Translations under genes and position numbers: made by a program | Notes under the pieces: generated by a model | Seen by the model: the letters and a program-made list of their open reading frames with translations, nothing else | Told to the model about the DNA's origin: nothing | The model's database searches: none | Part shown: one piece after another, positions 1-4,537 of the stretch | Position numbering within the stretch: the stretch's first letter is position 1 | How the letters are laid out: the number at the start of each line of letters is the position of its first letter | Source of the DNA: Chloroflexota bacterium | GTDB lineage: Bacteria > Chloroflexota > Dormibacteria > Dormibacterales > Dormibacteraceae | Length of the DNA stretch: 32,191 nucleotides | Direction of reading: 5' to 3' | Assembly (NCBI GenBank): GCA_005879985.1 | Contig: VBIA01000166.1 | Span: 1 to 32,191, forward strand

Positions 1-1
1 C

Positions 2-94
2 TCGACGCTGGAGCAGGTCTTCGACCCATGGGCGGGCCTGGAGAACACCGACCTGGCCTTCGAGCGACTCTCCCTCGGAGTGAAGACCGCTTGA
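2..94 (+). CDS. purB: C-terminal fragment, probably adenylosuccinate lyase (PurB)
   Basis: Open frame from the window edge, STLEQVFDPWAGLENTDLAFERLSLGVKTA*, resembles a PurB C-terminus and lies directly upstream of purC; only 30 residues visible. Confidence 0.5.
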   Translation, partial: STLEQVFDPWAGLENTDLAFERLSLGVKTA

Positions 95-281
95 TCCGGC
101 GATCCCGGCCGGAGGCCCTCGCCGGATCTTCGGGGCCCATGCGACCCATCTTCGGGTTCAGCGGCTCCGCTGCTCGCTCTCGCAGTTCTCCAATGCGTTC
201 GCTCCGCTGCTCGCCGCTTCACCCGAATCTGAGCCCCCTGGATCCCCGAATCTCTCGTCGAGGTCTCCTGCCGTGATCGCC
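92..281 (+). repeat. Copy 1 of ~182-190 bp intergenic element (purB/purC gap)
   Basis: Aligns without gaps to 1191..1380 at an offset of exactly 1099 bp, about 22 mismatches in 190 by hand count; runs from the purB stop TGA to the purC start GTGATCGC. Confidence 0.93.
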
Positions 282-1193
282 GGTCCCGCGGTCAGCAACA
301 CGGAGCTGCCGCTGAAGCTTTTCGCGCGCGGCAAGGTGCGCGACACGTACGAGCTGCCCGACAACCAGCTGCTGATGGTTGCGACCGACCGGCTCTCGGC
401 GTTCGATCACGTGCTGCCCACCGGCATCCCCGACCGCGGCAAGGTGCTGACCCAGCTGTCGATCTTCTGGTTCTCGCAGACGCACACGTTCCAGGAGAAC
501 CACCTCGTGTCGGGCATGGTCCCCGACCTGCCCGCCGCCCTTCGCGACCACCGCGAAGAGCTCGCCGGCCGATTCATGATCGTGCGCAAGGCCAAGCGCA
601 TCGACTTCGAGTGCGTCGTCCGCGGCTACCTTGCCGGGAGCGCGTGGAAGGAGTACGAGAAGTCGCACACGCTGGCCGGCGAGGAGATGCCACCCGGCCT
701 GCGGCAGAGCGAGAAGCTGGCGTATCCGATCTTTTCGCCCGCGACCAAGGCCGAAACCGGCCACGACGAGAACATCACGTACGCGCAGCTGAAGAAGGAG
801 CTCGGCGACGACCTGGCGCAGAAGCTGCGCGACGCAAGCCTCGAGCTTTACAAGCACGCGTCGCAGCACGCGGAGAGGCGCGGCATCATACTGGCCGACA
901 CCAAGTTCGAGTTCGGCCAGATCGACGACGAGCTCATTCTCATCGACGAGGTCCTCACGCCCGACAGCTCGCGGTTCTGGGACGCGGTCACCTACGGCGT
1001 AGGCACGACCCCCGACTCGTACGACAAGCAGTTCGTGCGCGACTGGCTCACGCGCTCGGGCTGGGACAAGGAGTCCGATCCACCGGCCCTGCCGCCCGAG
1101 ATCGTCGCCCAGACCCGCGAGCGCTACCTCACCGCGTATCACCGCCTCGTGGGCAAGCCCCTCTTTCCGAAGAAGCCGAGGAACGAAAAATGA
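273..1193 (+). CDS. purC: Phosphoribosylaminoimidazole-succinocarboxamide synthase
   Basis: KLFARGKVRDTYELPDNQLLMVATDRLSAFDHVLPTGIPDRGKVLTQLS; ILADTKFEFG; LIDEVLTPDSSRFW - SAICAR synthetase motifs; GTG start. Confidence 0.97.
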   Translation: MIAGPAVSNTELPLKLFARGKVRDTYELPDNQLLMVATDRLSAFDHVLPTGIPDRGKVLTQLSIFWFSQTHTFQENHLVSGMVPDLPAALRDHREELAGRFMIVRKAKRIDFECVVRGYLAGSAWKEYEKSHTLAGEEMPPGLRQSEKLAYPIFSPATKAETGHDENITYAQLKKELGDDLAQKLRDASLELYKHASQHAERRGIILADTKFEFGQIDDELILIDEVLTPDSSRFWDAVTYGVGTTPDSYDKQFVRDWLTRSGWDKESDPPALPPEIVAQTRERYLTAYHRLVGKPLFPKKPRNEK

Positions 1194-1380
1194 TTTGGCG
1201 ATCCCGTCCCGAGCCCCTCGACGGAGCTTCGGCGCCCATGCGGCCCATCTTCGGGCTCAGCGGCTCCGCTGCTCGCTTACGCAGTTCTCCAATGCGCTCG
1301 CTCCGCTGCTCGCCGCTTCGTCCGAATCTGGGCCACCTGGATCGCCGAATCTCTCGCCGAGGTCTCGGGACGTGATCGCG
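1191..1380 (+). repeat. Copy 2 of ~182-190 bp intergenic element (purC/purS gap)
   Basis: Ungapped match to 92..281; runs from the purC stop TGA to the purS start GTGATCGC. Confidence 0.93.
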
Positions 1381-1635
1381 CGAATAGTCGTGGTGCCGAA
1401 ACCGGTCGTCAACGACCCGCAGGGGGTCACGGTCCGGCAGGGTCTCGCGTTGCTGGGCTTCGGTGAGGTCACCGAGGTCCGCGTCGGCAAGTACATCGAG
1501 GTCAGGCTGGACGCGACCTCCGAGCGCGCGGCGCGCGAGCGCGTCGACGCGATGTGCAGCCGGCTGCTCGCCAACCATGTGATCGAGGACTACCACTTCG
1601 AGCTCGAGCACGAGAGCAAGGGCGCGATGCGATGA
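1372..1635 (+). CDS. purS: Phosphoribosylformylglycinamidine synthase subunit PurS
   Basis: GTG start; [46 protein letters not shown], 87 aa, followed by purQ with ATGA overlap. Confidence 0.95.
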
Positions 1636-2336
1636 AGTTTGGGGTCGTGGTTTTCCCGGGCACGTGGTCCGACCGCGACTGCGGGTGGGTCGTCGACCAG
1701 GTGCTCGGCGCGCACCTCCAGTACCTGTGGCACAAGGACGCGGACCTGAAGGGCTGCGACTGCATCATCCTGCCGGGCGGATTCGCCTACGGCGACTACC
1801 TCCGCACTGGCGCGATCGCTCGTTTCGCGCCGGTGATGGAGAGCATCGGCGAGTTCGCGGACCGCGGCGGACTGGTGTGGGGCATCTGCAACGGATTCCA
1901 GATCCTGTGCGAGTCCGGCCTGCTGCCCGGAGCGCTCATCCGCAACGCATCGCTCGAGTACCGCTGCGAGTGGACGAACCTTGTCGTCGAGCGCGCAGAT
2001 CTGGCGTTCACGTCGCAATGCGACGAGCGCGAGGTCCTCCGCGTGCCCATCTCGCACGGTGAGGGCAGCTACTTCGCAGACCCGGCCACGCTGTCGCGTC
2101 TCGAGCAGAACGGCCAGGTGGTGTTCCGCTACTGCGACGTCGAGGGCCGCGTCCGCCCCAACTCCAACCCGAACGGATCGCTGCACAACATCGCGGGCAT
2201 CGTCAACAGCCGCGGCAACGTGCTGGGCATGATGCCGCACCCGGAGCGCTGCGCCGAAGCCGAGCTCGGCGGCACCGACGGGCTCAAGCTGTTCCGCTCG
2301 GTGATGCACAGCGCGGCGCAGGTGCTGACGGCATGA
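1632..2336 (+). CDS. purQ: Phosphoribosylformylglycinamidine synthase subunit PurQ (glutamine amidotransferase)
   Basis: [56 protein letters not shown] overlap with purS and purL. Confidence 0.97.
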
Positions 2337-4537
2337 AGCTGGAGGACCGCAACGTTGACGAGCGCAGGCTGCGCGAGGTCGCGCTCACGGCTGACGAGTA
2401 CCGCGTCATCGTCGAATCGCTGAAGCGGCCGCCCAACGACCTCGAGCTCGGGATGCTCGGCGTGCTGTGGTCGGAGCACTGCTCGTACAAGACGTCGAAG
2501 GCTTTGCTTCGCCGGCTGCCCTCGAGCGGGGCGGCGGTGCTGCAAGGCCCTGGTGAGAACGCCGGCGCGGTCAGCCTCGGCAACGGGTGGGCTGTCGTTT
2601 TCAAGATCGAGTCCCACAACCATCCGTCGGCCATCGAGCCGTACCAGGGCGCGGCAACCGGCGTGGGCGGCATCCTCCGCGACGTCATCGCCATGGGCGC
2701 GCGGCCGATCGCGCTGCTCGACTCGCTGCGTTTCGGTCCGCTGCCGGAATCCCGCCGGCACTTCGATGGCGTGGTCGCCGGCATCGGTGGATACGGCAAC
2801 TGCATAGGCGTGCCGACCGTCGGGGGCGAGGTCTACTTCGAGGACTGCTACGCGCAAAACCCGCTGGTCAACGCGATGTGTGTGGGCCTGGTCCGGGCCA
2901 ACGACCTGATGCGTGCGCGCGCCGAGGGCACCGGCAACAAGCTGCTGCTCGTCGGCGCCGACACCGGCCGCGATGGCATCCACGGCGCGGCATTCGCGTC
3001 GCTCGAGCTTGACGAGGACAGCTCGCAGCGCCGACCGGCGGTGCAGGTCGGCAACCCATTCCTCGAGAAGTGCCTGCTCGAAGCGTGCATGGACCTATCG
3101 CTGACCGACGCCGTGGTCGCGATCCAGGATCTGGGCGCCGCGGGGCTCACGTCATCGGTGGCGGAGTGCGCGGGCCGCGTGCCCGGTGCGGGGGCGAAGA
3201 TCGACGTGTCGCGCGTGCCGCGCCGCGAGCGAGGCATGACTCCCTACGACGTGATGCTCTCGGAGTCGCAGGAGCGGATGCTGGTGGTCGTGAGGCGCGG
3301 CCGCGAAGCCGACATCGAACGCATCTTTGAGACCTGGGACCTCACGTCGGCGGTGATCGGCGAGGTCACCAACGACGGGCATCTGACTGTCGTGGATCAC
3401 AAGGAGCAGGTCGCCCGCGTGCCGATTCAGCTGCTCACTGAAGGCGCGCCTCTGCGGCGGCTCGTCGGACTTCCGCCCGAGCCCGCGCCGGCGCTCGATA
3501 TCGACGCGCTGCCCCCGCCCGCTGACATCGGCGCCGCGCTTCTGCGGATGCTTGCGAGCCCGAACCTCTGCAGCCGCGGGCCGATCATCCGCCGCTACGA
3601 CCACATGGTGGGCGACGCGACGGTCATTCCTCCGGGCGGCGACGCGGCGATGCTGCGCGTGAAGGGCACGAAGATCGGCATCGCGATGACCACTTCGTGC
3701 AACGCGCGCTACTGCCATCTCGACGCGAACCTCGGCGCGCAGCTCGCGGTCGCCGAGGCGGCGCGCAACATCATCGCCACCGGCGCTCAGCCGCTCGCCA
3801 TAACCGACTGCCTGAACATGGCTAACCCGGACCGGCCCGAGGTCTACTGGCAGCTGGAAGAGACGGTCAGCGGGATGGCGCAGGCGTGCAGGTCGCTGGA
3901 CCTCCCGATCGTCAGCGGCAACGTCAGCCTGTACAACGAGTCCGCGGGCGGGGCCGCCATCTACCCGACCCCGGTGATCGGTATGGTGGGCCAGATCGAC
4001 GACTACGACCGCCGCCTGCAGGCTGGCTTCAAGCACGAGGGTGACTTCGTGCTGCTCATCGGCTCGAGCCACAACGACCTGGGTGGAAGCGAGTACCTGA
4101 AGGTCGAGCACGACATGGTCGCCGGCAGGCCGCCTGAGCTGGACCTCGCGCGCGAGCGCGCGGTCGGCAAGCTCATCCTCACGGCCGCACGCGCCGGCCT
4201 CATCAAGACCGCGCATGACTGCTCGGACGGCGGAATGCTCGTGGCGCTCGCCGAGTGCTGCCTGCTTGGCGGCATCGGCATGCGAGGCCCCGCGCTGAAT
4301 CCGGAGCCGCCGCTCCGCATCGACGCAGCGTTCTTCGGCGAGTCGCCGAGCCGGTTCATCGTCAGCGCTCCTTCCCGCGCGACGCCCGAGCTTCAGTCGC
4401 TTGCACGCCGGCATCACGTCGAGATCGCGCTGCTCGGGCTGACCGGCGGCGACGCGCTCGAGCTCGAAGGCCAGCTGAAGCTGACGGTGCAGGAGATGCG
4501 AGAGGCGTGGGAAGGTGGACTAGGAGGGCCGGCCTGA
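2333..4537 (+). CDS. purL: Phosphoribosylformylglycinamidine synthase subunit PurL
   Basis: [45 protein letters not shown]; 734 aa. Confidence 0.97.

Follow-up and report, generated by a model that had tools for sequence, protein, structure and literature searches.

A short dispersed hairpin element that appears to insert at NTGA gene overlaps and to bridge them with its own reading frame in one family of soil Chloroflexota

We analysed a 32,191-nt stretch of DNA (hereafter the window; it is contig C27 in a draft genome of 2.85 Mb) in which the purB–purC and purC–purS junctions are each occupied by a copy of a short dispersed element. This element has in all likelihood (probability roughly 0.84) inserted at NTGA overlaps, where its own frame bridges the junction in a MIRU-like design. 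Its occurrence is almost confined to a single family of soil Chloroflexota: matches were returned for 41 of the 101 genomes searched, 37 of them from the window's own family, and a bridging-peptide profile matched 39/42 family genomes with weak strays elsewhere. Phage, plasmid and viral collections gave no match to the element. The bridging ORF with its -4/-4 spacing is known from MIRUs, which went unmentioned in the first-pass annotation; an antisense-folding hairpin of ~180 nt and a hexamer matching the downstream start are new.

The window begins within the 3′ end of purB (1–94, plus strand; stop TGA 92–94), an open frame assigned by operon position and by its conserved end, which is the same in relatives and in contig C39. 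Copy 1 of the element (92–277, plus strand) is flanked by a TGAT duplication (92–95 and 274–277), and its bridging ORF (91–276, plus strand) overlaps the purB stop with its TTG (91–93) and the purC GTG (273–275) with its TGA (274–276). The start codon of purC (273–1193, plus strand; SAICAR synthetase, PF01259, E=3e-72) consists of the last G of the element and the duplicated TG, and an SD-like GAGGT, read from the sequence, lies inside the copy (260–264, plus strand), 8 nt 5′ of this GTG. Copy 2 (1191–1376, plus strand) carries TGAT at 1191–1194 and 1373–1376 and a bridging ORF (1190–1375, plus strand) whose ATG (1190–1192) overlaps the purC stop and whose TGA (1373–1375) overlaps the GTG (1372–1374) of purS (1372–1635, plus strand; PF02700, E=1.3e-28); its SD-like GAGGT (1359–1363, plus strand) was also read from the sequence and is 8 nt 5′ of that GTG. 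A native SD, GAGGA (1178–1182, plus strand), is located upstream of ATG 1190 and would now serve the bridging ORF of copy 2. In both copies, a left hexamer GCGATC (99–104 and 1198–1203, plus strand) is the reverse complement of GATCGC at the downstream start (275–280 for purC and 1374–1379 for purS), and folding predictions place a long hairpin on the minus (antisense) strand (99–280 and 1198–1379).

The two repeats proposed in the first-pass annotation (92–280 and 1191–1379) are real and share 88 % identity, and comparison of copy 1 with its own genome returned 32 BLAST matches, several of which are split or partial (~30 matches, the window copies making up two). Contig C39 overlaps the end of the window contig and repeats the purB end and copy 1, differing at two bases, which on sequence grounds suggests variation between strains inside the element. 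The assembly is interrupted at copy 1 (window 1–298 versus the C39 end, locus L002).

Removal of 92–273 yields ACCGCTTGATCGCC and removal of 1191–1372 yields GAGGAACGAAAAATGATCGCGCGAAT, as the first-pass annotation had reconstructed. The empty purC–purS site so predicted, AAGAAGCCGAGGAACGAAAAATGATCGCGCGAAT (1191–1372 cut out), is present letter for letter in G001, a genome of the same genus (L061), with the same native GAGGA. At purB–purC, where relatives were expected to retain the overlap, uninserted junctions are indeed mostly NTGA with TTG, ATG or GTG (e.g. ACTTGATCGC, CGTTGATCGC and CGGTGATCGC), the exceptions being two g2 genomes (L063 and L065) with a longer spacer. The purC–purS junction is filled in G000, G025, G023, G020 and G034; G033, which is very similar to G034 at this junction, is uninserted and reads ACGAAACATGATCGCC. 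Uninserted purC–purS joints are mostly NTGA, some having other small spacings. The pntA–pntB junction, surveyed with four loci unreadable, is filled in 4 genomes and empty in 21, all 21 empty sites being ATGA or GTGA. Filled junctions read at these three positions contain one copy each and no tandem arrays. The accompanying statement that junctions in the window typically overlap as NTGA holds at purS/purQ (GATGA, 1632), purQ/purL (CATGA, 2333) and 5968 (TTGA), but not at 4537/4541.

Several junctions contain other or reduced inserts. The purB–purC junction of G041 (L080) retains a strongly shortened element remnant of ~36 nt with the frame kept, and at pntA–pntB in G003 (L362) the stretch ATGACCGCGGAGTCGCGGCAGGAGGTCGACCTGTGA forms a short in-frame bridge from ATGA to GTGA, which may likewise be a shortened remnant. 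The short in-frame ATGATCACGCGAGTGAACGAATGATCGC at purC–purS in G024 (L071) resembles a small duplication by which ATGA is rebuilt. A different insert of ~112 nt occupies purC–purS in G031 (L074); it too keeps the frame, has NTGA on either side and, like the element, ends in CGAGGTCTCC. Its interior is unrelated, and we discarded it as a second repeat family because it is present as a single copy in G031.

An end-motif search that imposed no frame, and then a DNA profile, produced 188 distinct copies in the fetched loci. A right-hand TGA is present in 36/188, a left TGA as well in 35 of these 36 and an in-frame open ORF in 33 of these 35; after dropping L002, which is the copy 1 locus, and L016, which is probably not of the junction type, 33 distinct junction copies remained, window copies included. 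All 33 have TGA on both sides and are positioned at NTGA start codons; L179 is out of frame, and the other 32 can be read without interruption from the original NTG as far as a new TGA, which overlaps the following start (-4/-4). Right-hand starts comprise 30 GTG, 2 ATG and 1 TTG, and an SD-like motif precedes the right start in 27/33. Junction copy lengths (179, 182, 185, 203, 206, 218 and 227 nt) differ by multiples of three; non-junction core lengths are spread over all three phases (37/32/18). The ORF frame is open in 32/32 junction copies and the other sense frames in 10/32 and 22/32, and the interior is stop-poor in the ORF frame even in non-junction copies (77/87 open). Extra small hairpins occur in the central loop of L069, L185, L199 and L228 (e.g. 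CCCCATGCCTTTGGCATGGGG), with lengths that keep the frame in junction copies. The bridging peptide has no synonymous-site signal, its codon positions varying as in non-junction copies, which suggests that only the frame is kept; as there is no codon-position signal and the bridging ORFs have no Pfam match, a peptide product under selection was rejected.

Genes downstream of junction copies include core functions: PurC, PurS, PntB, HisG, CcmE, an NADH-quinone oxidoreductase/antiporter type and a nucleotidyl transferase of galU type. The galU-type copies L207 and L262, and probably L263, are positioned at a start codon without upstream overlap, as described for MIRUs. By eye, L207, L262 and L263 display TAGATT-like -10 motifs ~7–10 nt 5′ of the ATG. 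The sequences suggest that the galU-type genes may have leaderless transcripts beginning at the bridging ORF.

These data modify the initial view of the insertion itself. A TGAT duplication, evident in both window copies, does not extend to the wider set: across the 33 junction copies only TGA is invariant (33/33), and the next base agrees in 19/33, compared with 10.2 expected by permutation, so the duplication is better described as TGA or TGAN. The short direct duplication does rebuild stop and start, as proposed, but does not by itself preserve the gene chain; it is the ORF that does so, the junctions surviving by virtue of an uninterrupted frame in the element that overlaps both neighbours. 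Similarly, the description of an element adapted to coupling junctions fits one sub-type, whereas ~150/188 copies are located away from start/stop overlaps, abutting stop codons and often CTAG. In these non-junction copies (L004, L033, L116, L169 and ~146 others), the upstream stop is often 23–26 nt before the left anchor and the stop of a convergent gene often 20–23 nt past the right anchor, and CTAG is strongly over-represented at the outer ends, being found in 60/150 on the right and 26/150 on the left (background ~1 % per 16 nt). Loci L166, L149, L178 and L222 are intermediate, combining a junction-type body and a left TGA with a right end of CTAG or similar and no start codon.

Both window copies fold well as RNA, and the element as a whole is a hairpin of ~180 nt whose antisense strand is favoured in folding (consensus energy -103 kcal/mol antisense versus -51 kcal/mol sense). 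The antisense strand is the more stable in 33/33 junction copies and 145/146 other copies (178/179), compared with 18/33 in a flank control. On the sense strand, mismatches in the arms are A.C rather than G.T at a ratio of 150:23, and since A.C there is a G.U wobble on the antisense, this too favours the antisense strand, which is under structural constraint. Because the sign would be no different for single-stranded DNA, the strand bias does not prove an RNA form. The left hexamer, which usually begins four bases past the left TGA, is the exact reverse complement of the downstream start GANNNN in 29/33 junction copies and matches at 5/6 bases in the other four; in total, 194/198 hexamer bases match, against 132.6 when permuted, and 0/5000 permutations reached this value. 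Between the orthologous copies L135 and L137, a paired change from GATC/GATC to GCTC/GAGC keeps the pairing.

Copies that share a junction do not group as a single clade, suggesting that insertion was recurrent. One clade per junction was rejected at purC–purS (p-AU 0.010), pntA–pntB (0.014) and purB–purC (1e-7), and four copies from the window genus, g1 (purB–purC, purC–purS and pntA–pntB), group with one G024 copy (support 98/95), these support and AU values being rough as the tree bootstrap was not fully settled. Repeated insertion is the simplest reading, and the recurrence at many junctions that the first-pass annotation anticipated is borne out; as we found no transposase or autonomous partner, the case for mobility rests on the distribution of copies and the empty sites. 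That the elements are old inherited spacers at operon joints, lost in most lineages, is very improbable: occupied sites common to several genera and the shortened in-frame remnant in G041 (L080) would suit such a history, but the AU tests argue against one clade per site, the g1 copies cluster by genus and not by site, and spacer loss would need to have been exact many times over. A more serious contender, to which we give somewhat less than even odds, is wide insertion without target preference, with survival only at NTGA overlaps and beside stop codons. Most other insertion outcomes would break genes and the non-junction copies do adjoin stop codons; however, TGA is present on both sides of every junction copy, and among genomic copies a double-TGA flank away from a start codon was seen in none except the doubtful L016. 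NTGA may be either actively targeted or only a tolerated outcome, and survivorship may account for some of the pattern in orientation and frame.

The strength of the fold, with its compensatory changes, also invites the explanation that the hairpins are cis-regulatory RNAs useful to the host (attenuators, mRNA-stability elements or terminators) and not selfish insertions, and non-junction copies often abutting stop codons and CTAG, as well as several junctions filled in more than one genus, are in keeping with it. We nevertheless consider it distinctly unlikely, given that folding favours the strand opposite to the operon mRNA, most relatives lack the element at the same junction and the copies filling a given site do not constitute a single clade. 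A search of Rfam 15 (window 1–2000 and nine loci) returned no match at E<=1. Selection after insertion could, in turn, have produced the pairing of the hexamer with the start region, since the closing base pairs extend to the start codon in all junction copies and the double change at L135 versus L137 kept pairing. This appears rather unlikely to us: G.U intermediates are almost absent on the mRNA strand, exact complementarity stops after 6–7 nt, beyond the nearly fixed 4-nt spacer, and arm complementarity is equally present in non-junction copies, where there is no start codon. The early end of the match and the absence of G.U intermediates favour a process other than mRNA selection. We infer that the hexamer was either templated by the target during insertion or is maintained by subsequent correction; the data do not discriminate between target copying during insertion, later template-switch correction and selection.

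On our preferred reading, namely insertion at NTGA overlaps bridged by the element's own frame, the element sits at an NTGA in which NTG is a gene start and TGA is usually also the stop of the previous gene, and one -4 overlap has become two, bridged by an ORF of ~61 codons, with a new NTGA that is mostly GTGA. Ribosomes finishing the upstream gene, or starting at the native NTG, would translate the bridge, melt the hairpin in doing so and re-initiate at the GTG via the element's own GAGGT. Such bridge translation and re-initiation would allow the operon to retain its translational coupling, and essential gene chains would stay intact because the element frame rebuilds both overlaps. The form acted on in mobility is presumably antisense RNA or single-stranded DNA. 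We tentatively envisage that the two strands are divided in their roles, the sense strand being kept as the bridging ORF while the antisense hairpin is mobilised and the hexamer is copied from the target start by a target-templated fold-back, a scheme that is possible but well short of probable.

Candidate movers did not match the distribution of the element. The Y1 transposase PF01797 was detected in 1/42 family genomes (G012, which has no detected element copies) in a search that was positive in five known control genomes, and RVT_1 was detected in 9/42 but not in G020, the genome with the most profile matches (27; 99 % complete). Both a Y1/RAYT and a reverse transcriptase mover were rejected on this basis. 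No autonomous partner with the same ends was found, the movers sought being Y1 transposase and reverse transcriptase.

The element shares features with several known families. Like REPs and BIMEs it is a dispersed extragenic hairpin, and REPs also favour one strand; however, they are much shorter and have no bridging ORF, and, unlike in REP/RAYT systems, no cognate Y1 transposase tracks the element. It is reminiscent of MITEs in being short, near-palindromic, without its own transposase and associated with a short direct duplication, but its ends, although hairpin-shaped, vary by site and match the flanking sequence. In Rickettsia, palindromic elements are in-frame insertions inside genes that lengthen the protein; these too are palindromic and keep an open frame after insertion, whereas the frame described here bridges two genes at NTGA. 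HEARO RNAs were also considered, a search on these giving nothing relevant, and literature searches on repeats of this type brought up no paper outside MIRUs. The known families considered do not account for the antisense fold or the target-matching hexamer, two features that may point to an undescribed mechanism by which hairpin DNA is moved or corrected.

The closest likeness is to MIRUs, which are shorter than 179–227 bp and often tandem, unlike the single copy at each junction read here. As described in PMC12548453, citing Supply et al. 1997, MIRUs insert at start codons and possess an internal ORF coupled at -4 spacing. The Chloroflexota element likewise occupies an NTGA start/stop overlap or a start codon, with TGA on both sides (33/33 junction copies), and has an internal ORF overlapping both neighbours by 4 nt (32/33). 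It differs in its phylum, its length of 179–227 bp, its long hairpin and antisense-strand structure, its left hexamer complementary to the target and its larger sub-type abutting stop codons and CTAG. By design description the element appears to work like a MIRU, and the design was apparently reached independently. It would be the second example, and one from a different phylum, of small elements using translational coupling as a safe harbour, and the natural before/after pairs at core purC, purS and pntB make the MIRU hypothesis testable.
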